This document shows positions 4,399-23,466 of a stretch of DNA of 47,913 nucleotides, in pieces. The notes beneath the pieces were generated by a model. That model was not told the DNA's origin. It saw nothing but the letters and a program-made list of their open reading frames with translations, and did no database searches. The translations under genes and the position numbers were made by a program. Position 1 is the first letter of the stretch. The number at the start of each line of letters is the position of its first letter. The stretch comes from Halieaceae bacterium (GTDB lineage: Bacteria; Pseudomonadota; Gammaproteobacteria; Pseudomonadales; Halieaceae): positions 1 through 47,913 of the forward strand of contig JANQGK010000129.1 in the NCBI GenBank assembly GCA_028277365.1. The letters are read 5' to 3'.

Positions 4399-6291
4399 TC
4401 AGCCGGCAGCCAGCTCAGCCTCCAGCGTTTCCAGCTCCTGTTGCAGGGTCAGCCAGCGGTTTTCGAGTTCGCTGGTTTCCTGGCGCAGCCGGCCCTGCTC
4501 GCGCAGCAGCTCATCCAGCTCAGCCTTGCGCCCGCCATCGTATAGCCCGCTGTCGGCAAGCCGTTCATTGATGGCGGCGAGGGCGGATTCGGCGGCTTCC
4601 ATGGCGCTTTCGGTGCGTTCGATGTCCTGCTTAAGGGGGCGAAGCTGCTCCCGCTGGCGCGCTGCTGCCTGGCGCTGGGCCTTGCGGTTGCCGGTCTCGG
4701 TGGGCGCCGCCGCCGGCGTCTCGCGCTGCTGCTTCATCACCCATTGTTCGTAGCTGCTGACATCATCCCGGTATTCACTGACCCGGCCGTCGTGTACCAG
4801 CCATAGCTCATCCACGGTGTTCCGCAGCAGGTGCCGGTCGTGGGTGACCAGGATCATGGCGCCATCAAAGCCCTGCAGCGAAAGGGTCAGGGCGTGCCGC
4901 ATCTCCATATCCAGGTGGTTGGTCGGTTCGTCCATGACCAGCAGATTGGGGCGCTGCCACACCACCATGGCCAGGGCCAGGCGGGTTTTTTCCCCACCGG
5001 AGAACGGCGCGATGGGCACATTGGCATCATCGCCGCGAAAATCGAAGCCACCCAGGAAATCCAGCACTTCCTGCTCCCGGGCATCCGGGCGCAGGCGCTG
5101 GAGGTGGGTAAAGGCGCTGGCATCCAGGTCTAGAGCCTCGAGCTGGTGCTGGTCGAAGTAGCCCACCGCGCAGTGGGCGCCTTCGCTGCGATCGCCTGCC
5201 AGTAGCGGCAATTCTCCGGTCAGGCTTTTCAAAAGGGTGGATTTGCCGGCGCCGTTGCGGCCCAGCAGGCCAATCCGGCTGCCCGGCCGCAATGTGAGTT
5301 CCACCGCCTTCAGCACCGGCTTGTCATAGCCCAGGCTGGCCCGGTCCAGTGACAGGATCGGGTCGCTGGCGCGATCCGGCGCCAGGAAAGTGAAAGAGAA
5401 CGGCGAGTCTACGTGGGCCGGGGCAATGGCCTGCATGCGCTCCAGTTCCTTGAGCCGGCTCTGGGCCTGGCGCGCCTTGGTGGCCTTGTAGCGGAAGCGG
5501 CGCACAAAGGCGTCGATCTCAGCAATGCGGCGCTGCTGTTTTTCGAAGGCAGCCTGCTGGTTGGCGAGCCGTTCCGCGCGCTGCTGCTCGAAGGCGGAAT
5601 AGTTGCCGCGGTAGGCCTGCACTCGCTGGTGTTCGACGTGCAGCACCTGGTCGCAGGTGGCATCGATGAACTCGCGATCGTGGGAGATCAGGATCAGGGT
5701 GCCCGGGTAGGCCTTGAGCCACTGTTCCAGCCACAGGGTGGCATCCAGGTCCAGGTGGTTGGTCGGCTCGTCCAGCAGCAACAGGTCCGAGGACGCCATC
5801 AGCGCCCGGCCCAGGTTGAGGCGAATGCGCCAGCCACCGGAGAAGCTGTTCACCCCGCGCTCTCCGTCGCCCGGCGCAAAGCCCAGGCCGTCCAGCATGC
5901 GTTGGGCGCGGCGCTCGATATCGTAGCCGCCGGCGGCATCCAGGGCCTGGTGCAGGGCCGCGCTGCGTTCGAAATCGCCCGCCTCGTCGGCAGCGTCGAG
6001 GTCGCGGCGCAGGCGGGCGATCTCGGGGTTCCCCTCGATCAGGAACTCCAGGGCCGTGGCACTGGAGGGGGCAATTTCCTGGGCCATGTTGGCAATGCGC
6101 ATACCTTCCAGACCATCGATATCGCCGCCGTCCGCCCCCAGTTCACCCAGCAGCAATGCGAACAGGCTGGACTTGCCACAGCCATTGGCGCCGGTCAGGG
6201 CCAAGTGCTGACGGGGCTGGATAGTCAGGTCCACCTCCCGCAGCAATACCTTGGCGCCGCGCCGTAGACTAATATTGCGCAGTATGATCAT
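4399..6291 (-). CDS. yheS: ABC-F family ATP-binding protein, YheS-like
   Basis: Two ABC ATPase domains (GANGCGKSS, FSGGWRIRLNLGRAL, LLLDEPTNHLDL; GRNGAGKST, FSGGEKTRLALA, LVMDEPTNHLD), no TMDs, C-terminal coiled coil. Confidence 0.9.
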   Translation of the reverse strand: MIILRNISLRRGAKVLLREVDLTIQPRQHLALTGANGCGKSSLFALLLGELGADGGDIDGLEGMRIANMAQEIAPSSATALEFLIEGNPEIARLRRDLDAADEAGDFERSAALHQALDAAGGYDIERRAQRMLDGLGFAPGDGERGVNSFSGGWRIRLNLGRALMASSDLLLLDEPTNHLDLDATLWLEQWLKAYPGTLILISHDREFIDATCDQVLHVEHQRVQAYRGNYSAFEQQRAERLANQQAAFEKQQRRIAEIDAFVRRFRYKATKARQAQSRLKELERMQAIAPAHVDSPFSFTFLAPDRASDPILSLDRASLGYDKPVLKAVELTLRPGSRIGLLGRNGAGKSTLLKSLTGELPLLAGDRSEGAHCAVGYFDQHQLEALDLDASAFTHLQRLRPDAREQEVLDFLGGFDFRGDDANVPIAPFSGGEKTRLALAMVVWQRPNLLVMDEPTNHLDMEMRHALTLSLQGFDGAMILVTHDRHLLRNTVDELWLVHDGRVSEYRDDVSSYEQWVMKQQRETPAAAPTETGNRKAQRQAAARQREQLRPLKQDIERTESAMEAAESALAAINERLADSGLYDGGRKAELDELLREQGRLRQETSELENRWLTLQQELETLEAELAAG

Positions 6292-6805
6292 CGGCGCGGA
6301 TTTTACCGACGGGGTTCCCGCGAATCCATTGTGGACCTTCTCGCTGGCGCTTTACGCCCGAGAGGGCGTGGCGGACCTGTGCCTGGACCTCCAGGACCGC
6401 CTTGGGCTGGATGTGAACCTGGTACTGTACGCCGCGTTCGCCGCCGCCAGGGGAGTGCAGGTGAGCCGCGGCGACCTGGCCGCGGTAGAGGGAGGCATCG
6501 CTGACTGGCGCGACCAGCGGTTGCGGCCGCTGCGAGACTTGCGCCGCCAACTGCAAGACGATGGCGACGAGCGCGCCGCCCGTCAGGCCATGCTCGAAGC
6601 GGAGCTGGCCCTGGAGCGTGTGCAGCAGCACCGAATGTGGCTGGCGCGGCGCCCGGCGGGAGACTGGCCCACAGGCGCAGGCGAGTTGCCCCTGCGCAGC
6701 AATCTGGCCGCCCTTGCACGGCATGCCGATATTGATGAACGGGAACTGGAGGCGCTGGCCTCAGCGCTGGAGCATTTGTTGCCGATGTTGGTGACGGAGC
6801 TGTAG
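6284..6805 (+). CDS. TIGR02444 family protein (uncharacterised)
   Basis: NPLWTFSLALYAREGVADLCLDLQDRLGLDVNLVLYAAF signature; ATG 6284. Confidence 0.8.
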   Translation: MIIGADFTDGVPANPLWTFSLALYAREGVADLCLDLQDRLGLDVNLVLYAAFAAARGVQVSRGDLAAVEGGIADWRDQRLRPLRDLRRQLQDDGDERAARQAMLEAELALERVQQHRMWLARRPAGDWPTGAGELPLRSNLAALARHADIDERELEALASALEHLLPMLVTEL

Positions 6806-7534
6806 TTGATGCTCGATCCAGCCGCCGATGCGGTTCCAGTGGGTTTTCTCGTCCTCAACCTGGCTGCCTGACAAATCGATGATGCCCATGCCCCGGGCGG
6901 CGGCGCGGGTGTAAAGCTGGCTGTCGCGGGTATAGGTGACCCGGGGCAGGCCCAGTTCGGCGAGAAACGCGTTGAGCTTGGAAAACATGATGGTGTTGCG
7001 CCTTACGCGGTTGGCGATCACCAGTAGCTGCTTGTTCTGCTCTCGCAGGGCGCCGGTCATCTCGATCTCGCGGATGAAGTTGGCGGCCGAGTGAATGTCG
7101 ATCGGCGAGGGCAGGATCGGCACCAGGATCAGGTCGGAATCGCTGATGCGATCGTAGAGATCGGTGCCGGTAAGGCCGGCGGGTGAATCCACCACCACCC
7201 GCTCCACATGGCGCGGCAAACGGTTACGGAAACTGCGAGTTTCATTGCTACTGAGGCGCCCGTAGGCGGCAATACCGGAAATCGGCGCCGCGGCCGTCGG
7301 CCGCAGCTTAAGCCAGTGGGCGCTGGACCCCTGCGGGTCGAAATCCATCAGCGCGGTGGCTTTCTCGCGGGAGGCAAACCAGGCCGCCAGGTTGGTGGCC
7401 AGCGTGGTTTTACCGCAGCCGCCCTTGGCATTGGCCACCAGTACAGTACGAGGCTGGGCCCGGGGTATAACCCGAAGCTCACCAAAATCCCTGTACTGCC
7501 GGGGGTCGTGTCCCCGTGAACCATTGCCGTGCAT
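6761..7534 (-). CDS. ParA/MinD family ATPase (orphan; no ParB seen)
   Basis: Deviant Walker A (ANAKGGCGKTTLATNLA), DFDPQGSS, VVVDSPAG, LILVPILPSPIDIHSA. Start set at ATG 7534 rather than the ORF-track start. Confidence 0.85.
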   Translation of the reverse strand: MHGNGSRGHDPRQYRDFGELRVIPRAQPRTVLVANAKGGCGKTTLATNLAAWFASREKATALMDFDPQGSSAHWLKLRPTAAAPISGIAAYGRLSSNETRSFRNRLPRHVERVVVDSPAGLTGTDLYDRISDSDLILVPILPSPIDIHSAANFIREIEMTGALREQNKQLLVIANRVRRNTIMFSKLNAFLAELGLPRVTYTRDSQLYTRAAARGMGIIDLSGSQVEDEKTHWNRIGGWIEHQLQLRHQHRQQMLQR

Positions 7535-7557
7535 GGCCGGTGCACCATCGTTGCAGC

Positions 7558-7576
7558 GTGCTAAGAAATGTAGCAC
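7558..7576. promoter_or_regulatory. Short inverted repeat GTGCTA-N7-TAGCAC upstream of the parA-like gene (possible operator)
   Basis: gtgctaagaaatgtagcac, perfect 6-bp arms, about 25 bp upstream of the start. Confidence 0.3.
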
Positions 7577-7815
7577 AGGCTCGAAAAAGTGAAATATTGC
7601 TTTGATTTGTGTTCGCCGCTGCCGGCGACCTGGATCACAGAATCCCAGGCCAGGCGGCCCGCGGTCCAACTCGACTGGCACCGTGGCGGGCAAGGGTAGT
7701 AGACTTTCAACCCCCGGCGCGGCGCGACCGTGAAACTTTCCGGGCACTACGCAGGTGCGCGCAAGCGGCACCTCCATTCGCATAACTCTCTTTATCCCAG
7801 AACCTGGAACGCATT

Positions 7816-8547
7816 ATGAAGATTTCTCGCATCGGGCTGGCGCTCACGGTAGCGCTGCTGACCACGGCCTGCAGCCAGCAGGACAACACGCCCGCCGAAC
7901 AACCGGTGACCCTGGAAACCACCGAGCAGCGCCTCAGTTACGGCATTGCCTACGGTCTCGGTGAGCGGCTTAAGGCCGACGGGGTGCCGCTTGACCTGGA
8001 CGCGTTCAGTGCCGGCCTGCGCCACGCCTTTGACGGTGAGGAGCAGCTGCTGACCCAGGAAGAGATCGGCCAGGAGATGCAGGCGTACCAGCAGGCACGT
8101 ATGGCGGAGCGCCAGGCAGAGGCCGAACAGGCTGCCACCAGCAATGCGGCCGAGGGCGATGCCTTCCGGGCGGACTACGCCAAGGCCGAGGGTGTCATGA
8201 GCACGGAGAGCGGCCTGCAGTACAAGGTGCTGGAAACCGGTGATGGCCCCATGCCCAACGCCGAGGACACGGTTGAAGTGCACTACCGCGGCACCCTGAT
8301 CGATGGCACCGAGTTCGACAGCTCCTACGCGCGCGGCAGCACCGTGTCCTTCGCGCTCAATCAGGTGATTCCCGGCTGGACCGAAGGCCTGCAGTTGATG
8401 CCGGTGGGTTCCAAGTACGAGTTCGTGATTCCGCCGGAACTGGCCTACGGCGCCGGTGGCGCCGGCCAGCAGATTGGCCCCAATGCGACCCTGGTGTTTC
8501 AGGTAGAGCTGGTGGGTATCGAGTCGGCCGAGTCTGACGAGGGCTAA
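7816..8547 (+). CDS. FKBP-type peptidyl-prolyl cis-trans isomerase (lipoprotein, FkpA/Mip-like)
   Basis: Signal/lipobox LLTTACSQ; FKBP domain VEVHYRGTLIDGTEFDSSYARG...VIPGWTEGLQLMPVG...IPPELAYG. Confidence 0.92.
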   Translation: MKISRIGLALTVALLTTACSQQDNTPAEQPVTLETTEQRLSYGIAYGLGERLKADGVPLDLDAFSAGLRHAFDGEEQLLTQEEIGQEMQAYQQARMAERQAEAEQAATSNAAEGDAFRADYAKAEGVMSTESGLQYKVLETGDGPMPNAEDTVEVHYRGTLIDGTEFDSSYARGSTVSFALNQVIPGWTEGLQLMPVGSKYEFVIPPELAYGAGGAGQQIGPNATLVFQVELVGIESAESDEG

Positions 8548-8553
8548 GTGGTC

Positions 8554-8577
8554 GCGGGCCGCACGCTGGCGGCCCGC
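8554..8577 (+). terminator. Stem-loop downstream of the FKBP gene (terminator-like, weak T-tract)
   Basis: GCGGGCCGC-acgctg-GCGGCCCGC, perfect 9-bp arms, between convergent genes. Confidence 0.5.
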
Positions 8578-8616
8578 GCCTCCTCACTGAGAGTTCTCTT
8601 AGAGCTCTCGCTGCGC

Positions 8617-9084
8617 TCAATCCGCCGCGAGCTGAGCGGCGTGGCTACCGTGTAAGATGGCAATCAGCCGGTCTTCCAGCGCGAAGCGGGTTTCCAGCAT
8701 TTCTCCCAGCAGCGACAGATCGGCATCGAGATCGTCGAGACTGTCGGCAGGGTACTTCTCGTCAAAGCCAAGAATGACTTCGGTGGTGTCACCGATGTTG
8801 GGTATCAGCTCGCCGGCCACCTCGCCACTGCCGTCGGCAAAGATTTCCGCTTCTTTCTGAAGGGCGAGGAACACCTCGAAGTGTCCCGCGGACACGTAAT
8901 CGACGAGGATCTGGCAGAGCCGTTCGATACCCTCATTGACCCGCTCCAGCGGCGCATCGCGATCCAGGGTGGCGGCGATGGCGGTGTACTTTACCAGCAC
9001 CTCACGGCGCTCCTTGAGCCAGCCCTGCAGCATGGTTTCTACCGCTTGCCAGGTTTCCCGTGAATTCTTGCAGTCATCGAGCAT
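8617..9084 (-). CDS. Rsd/AlgQ family anti-sigma70 regulator
   Basis: MLDDCKNSRETWQAVETMLQGWLKERREVLVKY...FEVFLALQKEAE...RFALEDRLI family pattern. Confidence 0.85.
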   Translation of the reverse strand: MLDDCKNSRETWQAVETMLQGWLKERREVLVKYTAIAATLDRDAPLERVNEGIERLCQILVDYVSAGHFEVFLALQKEAEIFADGSGEVAGELIPNIGDTTEVILGFDEKYPADSLDDLDADLSLLGEMLETRFALEDRLIAILHGSHAAQLAAD

Positions 9085-15820: not shown

Positions 15821-17284
15821 CTAGCTGGAGGAGCGCAGTAGGCGGTCGACGATGCGTTCCAGGTGGGCGAGGCTTGAGCACTCCGCCGCGAAGTGGCAGC
15901 AGCTCAGGTAGCGCGGCATCTCTGAATCTCCGCTGCCCCACATCGGGCGCGACTCCGGGTTGAGCCAGATGACCTGTTTGGCGCGTGCATAGATGCTCTG
16001 CATGATGTCCAGTCGAGGGTCGCCGTTGTTGTTGCGGGCGTCACCGAGGATGATCACCGTGGTCTGGCTGTCGATATCGTCCAGCGCCAGCTGCGCGAAA
16101 TCCATCAGGCTCGAGCCGTAGTCGGTGGCGCCGCCGTACTGCCAGTTCACCAGTTCCACTGCCTTTTCCACCGGGTGCTGGTCGAACAGCTCGCTCACCT
16201 CTCCCAGTCGGTTGGAAAAAGCAAAGCTGCGCACCCGCGGCAGCACATCGTACAGGCTGTAGAGGAACATCAGCAGAAACTTGGCGTAGGCCGATACCGA
16301 GCCAGAGACGTCACAGACCGCCAGGATCTGTGGGCGTTGTTTCTTGACTGACTTCCAGTACAGGTTGAACAGCACGCCCTCGTGGGCGATGCCGCGGCGC
16401 AGGGTTTTGGCCATGTTGAGCTGGCCGCGCTTGGTGACCTTGCGGCGCCGCGAATGGCGGGCGGCCAGCTTCTTGGCCATGCGCCGCACCAGGTCCTGCA
16501 CCCGGAGCTGATAGTGGTGCTCGATATGGCTGAGGCGTGCCTTGGCCAGCACGTCGTCCATGAACTGCTGGTTGCGGCCCTGGGCGTGCAGCAAATACTC
16601 GCGCTCGACATGGTCGCGCACCAGCTCTCGCAGCCGGTCGCGATAGTTCTGCAGTTCCCCCAGGGCATCGCTGCCGCGGTTCTCGAGATCGACGATGGCG
16701 CTGCGGATGTGGGCCTCACCCAGTTCGTCGAGAATGCGGCGGGTGAACTGGCCCTTCTGGGTAAACATCTGGATGTCCGGCAGGCCCGCCGCGTCGCCGG
16801 CGCGGGCAATAGCCAGCGCCAGTGCGTTGCGATCGTCGTTGCGCAGCATGTCCATGATCGGCAGGTCGAGCTGGCCTGCCAGGTCCGGGTCGGCGGCCAG
16901 CTCGCCTTCGAGGTCGAGGCGTGTCTCGCCGCCATCGCCGCCATCGCCGCCATCGCCGTCGAGTTCGTTGAGCGCTGCCTCGGCGGCTTCCAGGTCGGCG
17001 GGATCCGCGCCGGGGATGCTTTCCTGGGCGTCCTCACTGTTGGCGGCTGCCTGCCGCGCCGCCTCGGGTAGCTGGTAAGAAAAGAACTGGTCGAAGCAGC
17101 GGTTGAAGGTGACTTTTTCTTCAGCCGTTTTCGCCAGCACCAGCGACAGACCGCTGCGTAGCTGGTTTCTGTCTTCGTAGCCCAGGGTGGTGATCACCTG
17201 CACCGCGTCCAGCGTTTCCGCCGGCGAGATGCGCACGTCGTGGCTGCGCAGCACATTGATGAAACTGACCAGCCGGGAAGGCAT
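15821..17284 (-). CDS. VWA (CoxE-like) domain protein
   Basis: C-terminal VWA: LAVCDVSGSVSAYAKFLLMFLYSL (DxSxS), TVIILGDARNNNGDPRL; directly downstream of MoxR. Confidence 0.85.
   Translation of the reverse strand: MPSRLVSFINVLRSHDVRISPAETLDAVQVITTLGYEDRNQLRSGLSLVLAKTAEEKVTFNRCFDQFFSYQLPEAARQAAANSEDAQESIPGADPADLEAAEAALNELDGDGGDGGDGGETRLDLEGELAADPDLAGQLDLPIMDMLRNDDRNALALAIARAGDAAGLPDIQMFTQKGQFTRRILDELGEAHIRSAIVDLENRGSDALGELQNYRDRLRELVRDHVEREYLLHAQGRNQQFMDDVLAKARLSHIEHHYQLRVQDLVRRMAKKLAARHSRRRKVTKRGQLNMAKTLRRGIAHEGVLFNLYWKSVKKQRPQILAVCDVSGSVSAYAKFLLMFLYSLYDVLPRVRSFAFSNRLGEVSELFDQHPVEKAVELVNWQYGGATDYGSSLMDFAQLALDDIDSQTTVIILGDARNNNGDPRLDIMQSIYARAKQVIWLNPESRPMWGSGDSEMPRYLSCCHFAAECSSLAHLERIVDRLLRSSS
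16928..16957. repeat. 9-bp tandem repeat (gccgccatc) encoding GGD repeats in the VWA protein
   Basis: Three perfect copies plus a partial fourth; encodes DGGDGGDGG linker. Confidence 0.85.
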
Positions 17285-17285
17285 G

Positions 17286-17315
17286 GGCTCAGGCGCGGCC
17301 GGCTCAGGCGCGGCC
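17286..17315. repeat. Perfect 15-bp tandem duplication across the moxR stop codon
   Basis: ggctcaggcgcggcc x2; each copy contains an in-frame TGA for moxR on the minus strand. Confidence 0.9.
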
Positions 17316-18260
17316 GGCGGCGCCGGCCTTGGGTGGGTTGAGCAGGCTTCTCAGCTCCGGTTCGGTGGCCTCGATGTCGTCCTGGAACTTGAGCAGCACA
17401 TTGAGGGTGCTGCGCACCACGGATTCGTCGAGCTGTTCCGCGTGCAGCAACAGCAGGCTGCGGGCCCAGTCGATAGTCTCGCTAATGGCGGGCGCCTTCT
17501 TCAGGTCGAGCTGGCGCAGGGAGTGCACGAAGCCGACGATCTGTTGGCGCAGATCCTCGTCTACGTCCGGTACCCGGCTGCGCACGATGCGCTCCTCCAG
17601 TTCGGTGGTGGGGAATGGGATATACAGGTGCAGGCAGCGGCGCTTCAGGGCATCGGAAATGTCGCGGGTATTATTGCTGGTGAGGAATACCACCGGCGAG
17701 CTCTTGGCCTTCACCGTGCCGATCTCGGGAATCGACACCTGGTAGTCGGAGAGAATCTCCAGCAGCAGCGACTCGAATTCGTAGTCGGACTTGTCCACCT
17801 CGTCGATCAGCAGGATCGAACCCTCGGATTCGTGCATGGCCTTCAGCAGCGGCCGCGGCTCGAGGAAATCCTCCGAGTAGAAAATATCGCCGAAGTGGTG
17901 CAGGCGGTCGACGGACTCCGCCAGGCCCTTGGCGCCCTGCAGCAGGTCACCGAGCTTCTCCTTCAGCACCTGCGTGTACAGTAGCTGCTTGCCGTATTTC
18001 CACTCGTACAGCGCCTTGGCTTCGTCCAGGCCCTCATAGCACTGCAGGCGAATCAGCGGCAGCTCCAGCAGCTTGGCGGTGGTCTTGGCCAGCTCGGTCT
18101 TGCCCACGCCGGGCGGTCCCTCCACCAGGATGGGTTTGCGCAGCTGGCAGGCCAGGAACACGGCGGTGGCGATCTCGTCGCTGCAGATATAGCCGTGTTG
18201 CTCGAAGCCGGCCTTGATGTCAGCCGCCGAGGCGAGCTGGGGAAAATCCAGGGTATTCAC
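17304..18260 (-). CDS. MoxR family AAA+ ATPase
   Basis: LVEGPPGVGKTELAKTTAKLL, GSILLIDEVDKSDYEFESLLLEILSDYQVSIPEIGT, LTSNNTRDISDALKRRCLHLYIPFP. Confidence 0.92.
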   Translation of the reverse strand: MNTLDFPQLASAADIKAGFEQHGYICSDEIATAVFLACQLRKPILVEGPPGVGKTELAKTTAKLLELPLIRLQCYEGLDEAKALYEWKYGKQLLYTQVLKEKLGDLLQGAKGLAESVDRLHHFGDIFYSEDFLEPRPLLKAMHESEGSILLIDEVDKSDYEFESLLLEILSDYQVSIPEIGTVKAKSSPVVFLTSNNTRDISDALKRRCLHLYIPFPTTELEERIVRSRVPDVDEDLRQQIVGFVHSLRQLDLKKAPAISETIDWARSLLLLHAEQLDESVVRSTLNVLLKFQDDIEATEPELRSLLNPPKAGAAGRA

Positions 18261-18315
18261 GGGCTGTCCTTCAGAGTCGGTCGCCTATTGTAGCGGATCG
18301 CGCTGGTACCGGGCC

Positions 18316-19251
18316 TCAGCCGAAGCTGCGCCCGGCCGCCCGCTGCGCCGCCTGGTCCTGCACCTCGAAAAACTGCGCTACGGTGCGCTCGATGATGGCG
18401 GCGGCTGGCTCTACCTCGTCGATCAGGCTGGCGGACTGGCCGATCAGCGCCACGCTGGCCTCCATGTCGCCGCCGAAATACAGGTCGAGGATATTGGAGA
18501 GGATCTTGGAGCCGTCGGCCCCCTCGCGCAGTTTGGCGGTGGTGTCGCTCTTGCGGGCCCGCACCGGGGGCATGCCGGCGGTGTTGACCAGCCAGGTATC
18601 GGTGTCGCCGGCCTCGACAATGGCGCTTTTGAAGTTTGCGTGCACCGGGCTTTCGGCGGCGGACACGAAGCGGGTACCCATCTGTATGCCCTCAGCGCCG
18701 GCGGCAAAGGCCGCCGCCATGCCGATGCCGTCGCTGATGCCGCCGGCGGCCACCATGGGAACATCGCAACGCCGGCGAATGCCCTGCAGCAGCGGCAGCA
18801 GGCCCACCGGGTCCGGGTTCTTGAAGCCGCCGCCTTCCGTCCCCTCGACGATCAGCCCGTCCACGCCGCACTCCACCGCCTTCATGGCGCTCTTCAGGGT
18901 GGCCACCGAGTGGTACACGGTGATGTCGGCGTCTTTCAGCATGCCGATGAACTTGGCGGGGTTGCCTGCGGAGGTGGTAACGAATCTAACACCGTTTTCC
19001 ACCACGAAGCGCACCATGCTGTCGTCGCGCAGGAACAGCAGCGGGAGGTTCACGCCGAAGGGCTGGTCGGTGAGCTCTGCCATGGCGCGGATTTCCCGCT
19101 GGCAGTTCTCGGTTTCGCCGGAAGAAGTTTCGATAATGCCGAAGCCACCGGCGTTGCAGACGGCAGAGGCGAGTTGGGAGCGGGCGATCCAGCCCATGGG
19201 CGACTGCATGATGGGATAGCGGCTGCCCAGGTGCGCAAGTACACGGTTCAT
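18316..19251 (-). CDS. Nitronate monooxygenase family (NPD/2-nitropropane dioxygenase-like)
   Basis: PIMQSPMGWIARSQLASAVCNAGGFGII, DGLIVEGTEGGG, PMVAAGGISDGIGMAAAFAAGAEGIQMGTRFV. Confidence 0.88.
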   Translation of the reverse strand: MNRVLAHLGSRYPIMQSPMGWIARSQLASAVCNAGGFGIIETSSGETENCQREIRAMAELTDQPFGVNLPLLFLRDDSMVRFVVENGVRFVTTSAGNPAKFIGMLKDADITVYHSVATLKSAMKAVECGVDGLIVEGTEGGGFKNPDPVGLLPLLQGIRRRCDVPMVAAGGISDGIGMAAAFAAGAEGIQMGTRFVSAAESPVHANFKSAIVEAGDTDTWLVNTAGMPPVRARKSDTTAKLREGADGSKILSNILDLYFGGDMEASVALIGQSASLIDEVEPAAAIIERTVAQFFEVQDQAAQRAAGRSFG

Positions 19252-19287
19252 TGGGGTTTGTAGATTCCTTGTAGACGGGGGCGGGGT

Positions 19288-20286
19288 TCAACCCCCGGTG
19301 GTGTTCATGAAGCGGACGATGTCGGGTGCTTCGTCCAGGTCGAAGTGGTGTTTCTCGGGTTTCAGGTCCATGGCCGCGACCAGCGCTTGCTGCAGGGTCT
19401 CATCGTCTATCGCGGGGTCGCGCAGCAGGGCGCGCAGGTCCATGCTGTGCTCGTTGCCCAGGCAAAGCAGCAGGCGGCCTTCCACGGTAACCCGTACCCG
19501 GTTACAGAGGTGACAGAAATTGTGGCTGTGGGGGGAAATGAACCCCACCCGGCTGTCGCTGCCGGCCACCGCCCAGTAACGCGAGGGCCCGCCGGTCTGT
19601 TCGGTGGTGGGGGTGAGTGAATAGCGGCTGCTGATCACCTCCCGCACCTCGTCGCTGGAGCAGAAGGTGAGCGCCCGGTCGTGATCGTCGATCAGCCCCA
19701 GCGGCATTTCCTCGATAAAGGAGATATCCAGGCCCTTGTCCAAGGCGAAGTCCACCAGGTCGAGAATCTCTTCCTCGTTGCGGCCCTTCATGATCACAGT
19801 GTTGAGCTTGATGCGCTCAAAGCCCGCGGCCCGAGCGGCGTCGACGCCCTTCAACACCTGCGCCAGGTCGCCGGTGCGGGTGATGCGGCGGAATTTGTCC
19901 GCATCCAGGCTGTCGAGGCTGATATTGATGCGCTTGACGCCTGCTGCCCGCAGCGGCCCGGCAAAGCGGTCGAGTTGGGAGCCGTTGGTGGTGATCACCA
20001 GTTCGTCGAGGCTGTCGAGGGCGCCCAGCTGCTCCACCAGATGCATGACGTTGTGGCGCACCAGCGGCTCACCGCCGGTGAGGCGTATCTTCTTCACGCC
20101 GAGGGCGGCGAAGGCGGCGCCCACCCGGTATAGCTCTTCGAGGCTTAGCACCTCGGCCCGTGGCACAAAGGTCATGTCTTCCGCCATGCAGTACACGCAG
20201 CGGAAATCACAGCGGTCAGTCACCGACAGGCGGATGTAATCTACCGTGCGGCCGAAGCGGTCTACCAGTGCGGGTGGATTCTGCAT
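19288..20286 (-). CDS. moaA: GTP 3',8-cyclase
   Basis: [20 protein letters not shown] radical SAM CxxxCxxC, C-terminal [23 protein letters not shown] cluster motif. Confidence 0.95.
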
Positions 20287-20360
20287 AGCCCACCGATTCT
20301 ACTGTGAATAATTCCGGTCCTCTAGTTACACTTAACAACCTCGCCACAGGGAGAATAACA

Positions 20361-21035
20361 ATGACAGGGCGTCTCGACGGCAAGCGCATTCTCATTACCC
20401 AGGCCGACGATTTCATGGGTCCCACTTTCAGCGCCGCCTTTCGGGCGGAAGGTGCCGAGGTGATTGAAGACCGCAGCGACCTGACGGTGCCAGAGGCGGC
20501 CGCCGAGGCGGTGGCCGCTGCGGGGGAAATCAACGTGCTGGTGGCCAACCTGGCCGCACCCTCGGATGCGGCCTACGCCGTCAAGGTCTCAGACGAACGC
20601 TGGAACCGCCTGTTCGACGCGATGGTGCACCCTCTGCACCGGCTGGTGCGCGCCGCGCTGCCCGACATGATGGGGCGCAAGGCGGGCAAGATCATCGTGG
20701 TGGGCAGTGCCACCGGCCTCAAGGCGGCGCCGGGTACCGCGCCCTACAGCGCCGCGCGCAGTGCCCAGGTGGGCTATGTGCGCAGCGTGGGTGTGGAGGC
20801 GGCCCGCTTCAACGTACAGATCAACCTGATCGCCCAGCATTTCGTGGAAAACCCCGACTACTTCTCGGAGGAGTTCCAGCAGACCGACGCCTTCAAGCAG
20901 CTGATAACGGAGGTGCCCGCCGGCCGCCTGGCGCGGCCTGAGGAGGACGCCGCCCTGGCCGTGTTCCTGGCCTCCAACGAATCCGATTTCTTCGTAGGGC
21001 AGGCGATCCCATTTTCCGGAGGCTGGGCACAATGA
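20361..21035 (+). CDS. Halohydrin dehalogenase-like SDR-fold protein (candidate HHDH)
   Basis: T-x4-F-x-G (TQADDFMG, residues 13-20) replaces the SDR TGxxxGxG loop. S116-x12-Y129-x3-R133 (SATGLKAAPGTAPYSAAR) replaces SDR S-Y-xxx-K. C-terminus GRLARPEEDAALAVFLASNESDFFVGQAIPFSGGW. Confidence 0.8.
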   Translation: MTGRLDGKRILITQADDFMGPTFSAAFRAEGAEVIEDRSDLTVPEAAAEAVAAAGEINVLVANLAAPSDAAYAVKVSDERWNRLFDAMVHPLHRLVRAALPDMMGRKAGKIIVVGSATGLKAAPGTAPYSAARSAQVGYVRSVGVEAARFNVQINLIAQHFVENPDYFSEEFQQTDAFKQLITEVPAGRLARPEEDAALAVFLASNESDFFVGQAIPFSGGWAQ

Positions 21036-22087
21036 TGCGCCTTGCCCTGGCGCTGGCCTGGTTGCTGGCGCAGTCCGGCTGGGCCGATACGCAGCGAGGA
21101 CCCTGCGACCCGGTCGATGGCATCACCTCGATCTGTGGCTTGTCGGCGCCGGAAGACATCGAGGTGCTGCCCGACGGCCGCTACCTGGTATTCAGCCAGA
21201 TGCACGAGGGGCTGGGCCTGTCGCTGCTGGACACCCGTGACGACAGCGTGCGCCCGCTCTACCCGCCGGGCGCGAGCCAGGTGGAGCCGGGCTGGGGTGA
21301 GGCCGACTGCGCAGCGCCCAACCCCGAGCAGATGTTGTTACACGGGATTCACCTGGCCCGGCGCGGCGACGGGCGCCTGCAGGTGCTGGCGGTAAACCAC
21401 GGCGGCCGTGAGTCGGTGGAGTTTTTCGAAATTCTCGAGCCCCGCCAGGACTTGCCGGTCGCCATCTGGCGCGGCTGTGTGATCACCCCCGAGCCGCTGT
21501 TCTTTAATGATGTGGTGAGCCTGTCTGATGGAGGCTTCCTTGCCACTCATATGTTCTCTCGCAATGCCCAGACCTGGGGCGCCATTAAGGCTCTGGCGGG
21601 ATCGGAAACCGGCCGCGTCTACCGCTGGCGACCCGCAAGCGGCTTTGAGGCCGTCCCCGGCACCGGGGTGCGTATGGCCAACGGTATTGCCATCGCCCCG
21701 GACGAGCGTCACTTCTTCCTCAATGCCTACCTGGGCAGTGAAGTGCGCAAGTATGCACTGGAGGGCGGCGAGCCGCTGGCGATTCTGCCCATCTCGCGGC
21801 CCGATAATTCCGCCTGGGACAGCCGCGGGCGGCTGCTGGTGGCGAGCCACGACGACAGCCTGGGCGCCATCGTCGACGGCCTGCCGCGCAGCGACGGCGG
21901 CCCGGTGGACCTGCGCTTCAAGATAGTCGCTATCGACCCGGACACATTGGAAACCGAGACCGTGCTGGAGCGTGAAGGCGCCCCGATGGGTGGAGGCACC
22001 GTGGCGGTGGATGCCGCGGACCACGTTTACATCGGTTCCTACGCCGGCGACCGCATCATAAAGTTCCCGCTGACGATTTCGCCGTGA
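21032..22087 (+). CDS. Secreted SMP-30/gluconolactonase/strictosidine-synthase-like beta-propeller (lactonase/arylesterase-like)
   Basis: Signal peptide; PEDIEVLPDGRYLVFSQ, FFNDVVSLSDGGFLATHM, MANGIAIAPDERHFFLNAYLGSEVRKYAL. ATGA overlap with the preceding stop. Confidence 0.75.
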   Translation: MMRLALALAWLLAQSGWADTQRGPCDPVDGITSICGLSAPEDIEVLPDGRYLVFSQMHEGLGLSLLDTRDDSVRPLYPPGASQVEPGWGEADCAAPNPEQMLLHGIHLARRGDGRLQVLAVNHGGRESVEFFEILEPRQDLPVAIWRGCVITPEPLFFNDVVSLSDGGFLATHMFSRNAQTWGAIKALAGSETGRVYRWRPASGFEAVPGTGVRMANGIAIAPDERHFFLNAYLGSEVRKYALEGGEPLAILPISRPDNSAWDSRGRLLVASHDDSLGAIVDGLPRSDGGPVDLRFKIVAIDPDTLETETVLEREGAPMGGGTVAVDAADHVYIGSYAGDRIIKFPLTISP

Positions 22088-23466
22088 CTGCCGGCCCGGT
22101 TCGCGCGATAGCATTGTTTGCCGGGCCGCTGCTGGCGCTGCTGGTGCTGGCCGGCATGCTGCAGGCGGGCTACTCGCGGGAGATTGCCGTGACCGCGCTG
22201 GTCGCCAGCTGGTGTGTGGTGTGGTGGATATTCGAACCGGTGCCGATCCCGGTGACCTCGTTGTTGCCGCTGGCCGTCCTGCCGCTGCTGGGCGTGTTGA
22301 CCCCGGCGGAAGTCGGCGCCGCCTACGGCAGCCCGCTGATTCTTCTTTTACTGGGTGGCTTCATCCTGTCCCGCGCTATGGAAACCAGCGGCGCCCATCG
22401 CCGGGTGGCGCTCAACATGATGCGCCTGTTCGGTGCCGACAGCGACCGGCGCCTCGTGTTTGGTTTCATGGCGGCGGCCGCCGGCCTCAGCATGTGGATT
22501 TCCAATACCGCCACCACCCTGATGCTGCTGCCGGTGGCCATGGCCATTATCGAGCGCGCCCGCGGCGAGGCGCTGGCGGTACCGCTGTTGCTGGGCATGG
22601 CCTACGCTGCCAGCGTGGGTGGGATTGCCACACCCATCGGCACACCCCCCAACCTGATCTTTATGCAGATCTACAGCGAGACGACCGGCGGTGAGATCAG
22701 CTTTGGCCGGTGGATCAGCTGGGGCCTGCCAGTGGTGCTGGTGATGGTGCCGCTGATGGGACTGTGGTTGACCCGCAGCCTGCGCGGTTCCAGCGATGTG
22801 GACCTGCCGGAGTCCGGCGCCTGGCGCATTGAAGAGAAGCGCGTGATGATCGTGTTCGCACTGACCGCGCTGGCCTGGGTAACCCGCACCGAGCCCTTCG
22901 GCGGCTGGCGCGCCTGGCTGAACCTGCCCCAGGCCAACGACGCCTCGGTGGCTCTGTTGGCGGTGGTGCTGATGTTTGTGGTACCCAACGGCAAGGGTGA
23001 GCGGCTGTTGAGCTGGGAGCAGGCGGTGAGCATTCCCTGGGGCGTGCTGATCCTGTTCTCCGGCGGCATCTGCCTGGCCAAGGGTTTTGTGGCCTCGGGC
23101 CTGTCCGGCGTGCTGGGTGAGTGGCTCGCCTCGCTCAACTACCTGCCGATCTGGCTGCTGATGGGCATCACCTGCCTCGTAGTGACCTTCATGACAGAAA
23201 CTACCAGCAATGTCGCCACCACCACACTGCTGATGCCGATACTGGCCGCCGCCGGCGTCGCTGCCGATATCGCCCCCGAAGTACTCATGGTGCCCGCCGC
23301 CATGACCGCCAGCTGCGCCTTCATGCTACCGGTGGCTACCGCGCCCAACACCGTGGTCTACGGCAGCGGTAAGATCACCGTGCAACGCATGGTGCGGGAG
23401 GGCTTTGTGCTCAATATGCTCGGCGTGTTGGTGGTGGCCAGTATCTGTTACTGGCGGCTGGTCTGA
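22084..23466 (+). CDS. SLC13/DASS family anion:sodium symporter
   Basis: Many TM segments; VTSLLPLAVLPLLGVLTPAEVGAAYGSPLILLLLGGFILSRAMETSGAHRRVAL, SNTATTLMLLPVAMAI, GIATPIGTPPNLIF, ETTSNVATTTLLMPI. GTGA overlap with the preceding gene. Confidence 0.9.
   Translation: MTAGPVRAIALFAGPLLALLVLAGMLQAGYSREIAVTALVASWCVVWWIFEPVPIPVTSLLPLAVLPLLGVLTPAEVGAAYGSPLILLLLGGFILSRAMETSGAHRRVALNMMRLFGADSDRRLVFGFMAAAAGLSMWISNTATTLMLLPVAMAIIERARGEALAVPLLLGMAYAASVGGIATPIGTPPNLIFMQIYSETTGGEISFGRWISWGLPVVLVMVPLMGLWLTRSLRGSSDVDLPESGAWRIEEKRVMIVFALTALAWVTRTEPFGGWRAWLNLPQANDASVALLAVVLMFVVPNGKGERLLSWEQAVSIPWGVLILFSGGICLAKGFVASGLSGVLGEWLASLNYLPIWLLMGITCLVVTFMTETTSNVATTTLLMPILAAAGVAADIAPEVLMVPAAMTASCAFMLPVATAPNTVVYGSGKITVQRMVREGFVLNMLGVLVVASICYWRLV

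Follow-up and report, generated by a model that had tools for sequence, protein, structure and literature searches.

A stretch of 47,913 nucleotides from contig JANQGK010000129.1 of a Halieaceae bacterium (positions 1 to 47,913; the window) carries a gene, hhdh, that very probably encodes a cofactor-independent halohydrin dehalogenase (HHDH) of the B/D superclade with HheB as its nearest counterpart, as judged from the sequence and a structural model. Dehalogenase chemistry is assigned to the protein by analogy with its family, with high confidence, and we infer its substrate and physiological role as proposed below. It adds a new, though unremarkable, member to an enzyme family already known in industry, and its gene sits in an unusual operon of a marine bacterium; any further HHDH branch offers a candidate biocatalyst with which chiral epoxides and beta-substituted alcohols could be made. 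An earlier reading of this DNA (the original prediction) had proposed an HHDH hidden under the name of a generic short-chain dehydrogenase/reductase (SDR). That interpretation is supported and correct in substance, although its ‘HheC-like’ should read ‘HheB/HheD-like’.

20361..21035, + strand: hhdh, predicted HHDH of the B/D superclade, 224 aa (motifs, PDB matches, tree and fold)
20397..20420, + strand: HHDH motif 1, T13-QADD-F18-M-G20, nucleophile/halide pocket, in place of the SDR TGxxxGxG (T13, M19 and G20 invariant in 23 homologs)
20706..20759, + strand: HHDH motif 2, S116-x12-Y129-x3-R133, catalytic triad (S116, Y129 and R133 invariant in 23 homologs)
20348..20353, + strand: probable ribosome-binding site of hhdh, AGGGAG (similar sequence 5’ of hhdh in two congeners)

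The open reading frame and its translation were as first described. The mechanical reading frame opens upstream, at GTG 20304; ATG 20361 is the likely start, because AGGGAG precedes it and homologs begin at the same position. Motif 1 (T-x4-F/Y-x-G) and motif 2 have been defined, and used to tell HHDHs from SDRs, in previous work (PMC4989007, PMC11976700). Each occurs once in the hhdh protein, and both together, anywhere in the chain, appeared in 0.056% of 50,000 composition-preserving shuffles of it. The classical SDR signature, a TG(A)x3G(A)xG cofactor loop with YxxxK, was searched for in the protein and is absent: there is no glycine motif at the N-terminus and no S-x10-14-Y-x3-K anywhere, and the sole TGxxxGxG-like string, TGLKAAPG at residue 118, is a chance match within the catalytic segment. 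The original prediction was therefore right that the SDR motifs are missing and both HHDH motifs present, and also that S, Y and R are spaced exactly as in HheC, a spacing found as well in HheB, HheD2, HheA2 and HheG.

Both motifs were present in 49 of 52 HHDH-clade proteins and absent from 7/7 SDR outgroup proteins, taken from the bacterium’s own genome and others; predicted halide-pocket residues are conserved across the homologous sequences, and the Gly-rich loop is missing from the hhdh protein. In the remaining three clade members Ser replaces the motif 1 Thr. These proteins (L057, L065 and one encoded on the Novosphingobium resinovorum plasmid pSA2, L069, 8001-8678) have the form S-x4-Y-M-G, and motif mining with T-x4-F/Y-x-G would overlook such natural Ser variants. 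Among three congeners the dN/dS of hhdh was 0.04-0.06, values that are only approximate because synonymous sites are near saturation, and which at the sequence level indicate purifying selection.

Comparison with known structures pointed the same way. The top four PDB sequence matches are all HHDHs: HheB (4ZD6 and its mutant 5B12; 1.8e-64), 8XXB, a mutant of HheD8 (1.1e-63), and 7B73, HheD2 (5.9e-61). They are followed by 6A41, named a dehalogenase, at 1e-26, and then by NAD(P)-dependent SDRs at ~1e-24, FabG first. HHDHs are homotetramers; an AlphaFold2 model of the monomer, built from 23 sequences (mean pLDDT 82.8, pTM 0.83), has an overall SDR-like Rossmann fold with HHDHs as its closest structures. 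In a fold search with this model, ranks 1-9 were all B/D-type HHDH chains (E 5e-24 to 6e-22) and FabG came next at 7e-16, a gap of about six orders of magnitude between the B/D-type structures and the best NAD(P)-dependent SDR. An intact dinucleotide pocket, which the original prediction named as a refuting result, was looked for in part, in a ligand-free model: HHDH structures are the first matches of that model, and the glycine motif is missing from the sequence.

Sequence databases would file the protein elsewhere. Its Pfam matches are adh_short_C2 and adh_short; none of the NCBIfam models listed passed its threshold, and those that scored best carry SDR names; and a 53%-identical homolog on pSA2 is called ‘SDR family oxidoreductase’ in RefSeq. 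Since Pfam and NCBIfam, and RefSeq for the homolog, all say SDR, the original prediction was fair in calling the enzyme hidden by annotation; neither Pfam nor NCBIfam gave it the name HHDH in place of SDR. The same SDR-only models, together with the SDR-like overall fold, are what would be expected of an NAD(P)-dependent SDR whose motifs had drifted. Against such drift, the Gly-rich loop and the catalytic Lys are both missing, the HHDH residues are invariant in homologs of a gene under purifying selection, and B/D-type HHDHs outrank all SDRs in the fold search. With the separation of SDR outgroups in the tree described below, these observations make a drifted SDR highly improbable; motifs, phylogeny and fold ranking led us to reject a classical SDR.

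We placed the protein in two phylogenies. The first comprised the hhdh protein and its relatives, seven SDR outgroups and six HHDH references (HheA2, B, C, D2, D8 and G). The SDRs split from all HHDHs with support of 100/99, so that the check proposed in the original prediction put the hhdh protein with HheB and HheD, outside the SDRs. HheB, HheD2, HheD8 and the hhdh protein fell into one B/D clade, within which 29 rows, comprising the hhdh protein, HheB and uncharacterized proteins, grouped together (90/94) next to the D-type group; HheG, HheC and HheA2 lay on long branches. In the second tree, computed without HheG, HheC, HheA2 and the SDRs, the core D-type clade was recovered at 100/99 with the hhdh protein outside it, and the hhdh protein, HheB and others formed a polytomy. 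Nesting with HheD2 and HheD8 in the core D subtype was thereby ruled out. On this sequence-based placement, made with references of types A2, B, C, D and G, the protein belongs to the B/D superclade, where HheB is the nearest of the characterized enzymes compared, nearer than core D. A distinct HHDH-like clade of ~222-226 aa proteins, 36-44% identical to the hhdh protein, was also seen in other Halieaceae and related families (L052-L057, L065) and may correspond to a named subtype.

Pairwise identities to the hhdh protein were 53% for HheB, 51% for HheD8, 50% for HheD2, 30% for HheA2, 27% for HheG and 26% for HheC (the HheC and HheA2 reference sequences are identical to PDB chains, and HheG was taken with PDB letters). 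HheB, the B-type enzyme of Corynebacterium sp. N-1074, is the best PDB match (4ZD6) by sequence and by fold; it aligns over nearly the full length, has both motifs and is of the same length class, but it has Tyr in motif 1 where the hhdh protein has F18, differs at about half of its residues and comes from another bacterial lineage. The D-type enzymes HheD2 and HheD8 share the motif 1 form TQADxFMG and the same fold with the hhdh protein, but form the core D-type clade of their own. HheC of Agrobacterium radiobacter AD1 (PDB 1PWX) has the motifs and S-Y-R spacing in common with it, but differs in length (254 aa vs 224 here) by a C-terminal extension that is unique to HheC (PMC4989007) and absent from the hhdh protein. 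The HheC-like C-terminal layout claimed in the original prediction was thus not borne out: the C-terminus, FVENPDYF...FFVGQAIPFSGGWAQ, matches the HheB/HheD layout. With only 26% identity and no extension, an HheC-type assignment was ruled out.

If the hhdh protein acts as its family does, Tyr129, its pKa lowered by Arg133, would remove a proton from a vicinal halohydrin held by Ser116; the alkoxide would close to an epoxide, and the halide would depart into the T13/F18/G20 pocket, which is the NAD(P) site in SDRs. In the reverse direction, small anions would open epoxides. The most likely role in the cell would be to pass halohydrins, via epoxides, to epoxide-consuming enzymes.

The rarity of HHDHs has to be tempered, relatives of hhdh having been found in 23 of the 140 genomes of the host family, Halieaceae; across the phylum they were found in 4 of 398 sampled genomes, the window’s own genome counted. 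No relatives were found among the viral contigs searched, and just one (at E <= 1e-30) among the plasmids.

In the window, a tightly coupled operon opens with hhdh and continues with a paraoxonase-like lactonase and an anion symporter; moaA lies on the other side.

21032..22087, + strand: paraoxonase (PON)/SMP-30-like secreted beta-propeller, probable lactonase/esterase (residues aligned to the PON1 calcium and histidine sites are kept)
22084..23466, + strand: DASS-family sodium-coupled anion symporter, third gene of the operon (TIGR00785 above cut-off)
19288..20286, - strand: moaA, divergent neighbor marking the apparent hhdh insertion site (conserved gene order)

The end of hhdh and the beginning of the lactonase gene share 4 nt, an overlap kept in two congeners, and the lactonase gene in turn overlaps the symporter gene. 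One congener (L010) keeps gene order and overlaps; the other (L009) keeps the hhdh/lactonase junction, after which its contig ends. The three genes would be co-transcribed. The ED, HGI, VNH, ND and NGI positions of the lactonase align identically with PON1, at the calcium and histidine sites of that enzyme.

These partners raise two further readings. In this Halieaceae lineage the three genes might form a dedicated natural catabolic module: a (halo)lactone would be opened in the periplasm by the PON-like lactonase, the halohydroxy acid so formed would enter through the symporter, and ring closure by the HHDH would yield an epoxy acid and halide. We regard this as improbable, and if true, it would give an HHDH a non-xenobiotic physiological role. 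Alternatively, the protein could be an HHDH-fold enzyme with a job other than dehalogenation, either opening or making epoxides with nitrite, cyanide, cyanate or carboxylate, or interconverting an epoxide that derives from a hydroxy acid or lactone and is itself imported by the symporter. The PON-like lactonase and anion symporter would suit such a job, but the history of the locus and the partners of relatives elsewhere, which suit ordinary epoxide handling, leave it an unlikely explanation.

That history can be read from related genomes. Seven genomes from six other genera of Halieaceae (L105-L110, L119) have the block VWA-moxR-moaA diverging from lactonase-DASS, with no hhdh at this position. 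A second genus (G021, L070) has hhdh between moaA and DASS and no lactonase there; its HHDH is 74% identical to the hhdh protein and branches as sister of the window clade (100/98). Because the moaA, lactonase and DASS block occurs without hhdh in the seven genomes, hhdh was probably inserted into an existing operon; on the simplest reading, which sets the direction of change, it entered a pre-existing divergent moaA locus in an ancestor of the two genera. We propose that hhdh would thus have joined the moaA, lactonase-DASS locus in one Halieaceae lineage, where it is now tightly coupled to both genes. The lactonase and DASS genes seem to have been paired before hhdh joined them, and the linkage may therefore be incidental; as proof of a shared pathway it was rejected. 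The apparent absence of hhdh from congener G002 was likewise rejected as a sign of loss, since the contig stops within the lactonase gene and moaA is also missing from the assembly. The conserved Halieaceae block spans 15821-23466 in the window. In three other genomes (L116-L118) DASS adjoins moaA and the lactonase is missing.

Elsewhere in the clade, other genes accompany the HHDH gene. On pSA2, a microsomal-type epoxide hydrolase gene ends 11 nt upstream of it. In L071, an alpha/beta-hydrolase gene lies 58 nt upstream, encoding HGFP and GHDWG motifs, which are characteristic of epoxide hydrolases and haloalkane dehalogenases with an Asp nucleophile. A GST-like gene is immediately upstream in L011 and L015; the two GST-like neighbors were counted as separate associations because BLASTP finds no homology between them. 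On other contigs, the host genome itself encodes an EHN-type epoxide hydrolase (HGWPG, GGDWG and GGHFAA motifs) and a limonene-type epoxide hydrolase. Together, these neighbors and the host epoxide hydrolases fit an enzyme turning halohydrins into epoxides that others remove.

Several points weigh against the assignment of hhdh as an HHDH with this role. The nearest characterized enzymes compared share only ~50% identity with the protein, and pLDDT drops below 50 at the C-terminal end of the model (residues 217-224). Both host epoxide hydrolase genes are unlinked to hhdh. It is not obvious what the linked lactonase and DASS genes would contribute to halohydrin catabolism, and a halohydrin-to-epoxide role leaves these partners unexplained; since seven related genomes carry the pair with no hhdh beside it, the operon tells little about substrate.

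What HHDHs do in nature is unsettled (PMC4989007). Members of the clade mapped here are found in marine Gammaproteobacteria, Alphaproteobacteria and Acidimicrobiia, and the neighboring genes vary among epoxide hydrolase, Asp-nucleophile alpha/beta-hydrolase, GST-like, and lactonase with anion symporter; the clade offers concrete genetic systems for asking what that natural role is. In three metagenome-assembled genomes of Rhodobiaceae (L013, L015 and L017; ~6200-8670), the end of the GST-like gene overlaps or abuts the HHDH start and a TauD/TfdA-type dioxygenase gene precedes the GST-like gene (GST and TauD domains were checked in L015 only); dioxygenase, GST-like protein and HHDH may form a conserved operon.
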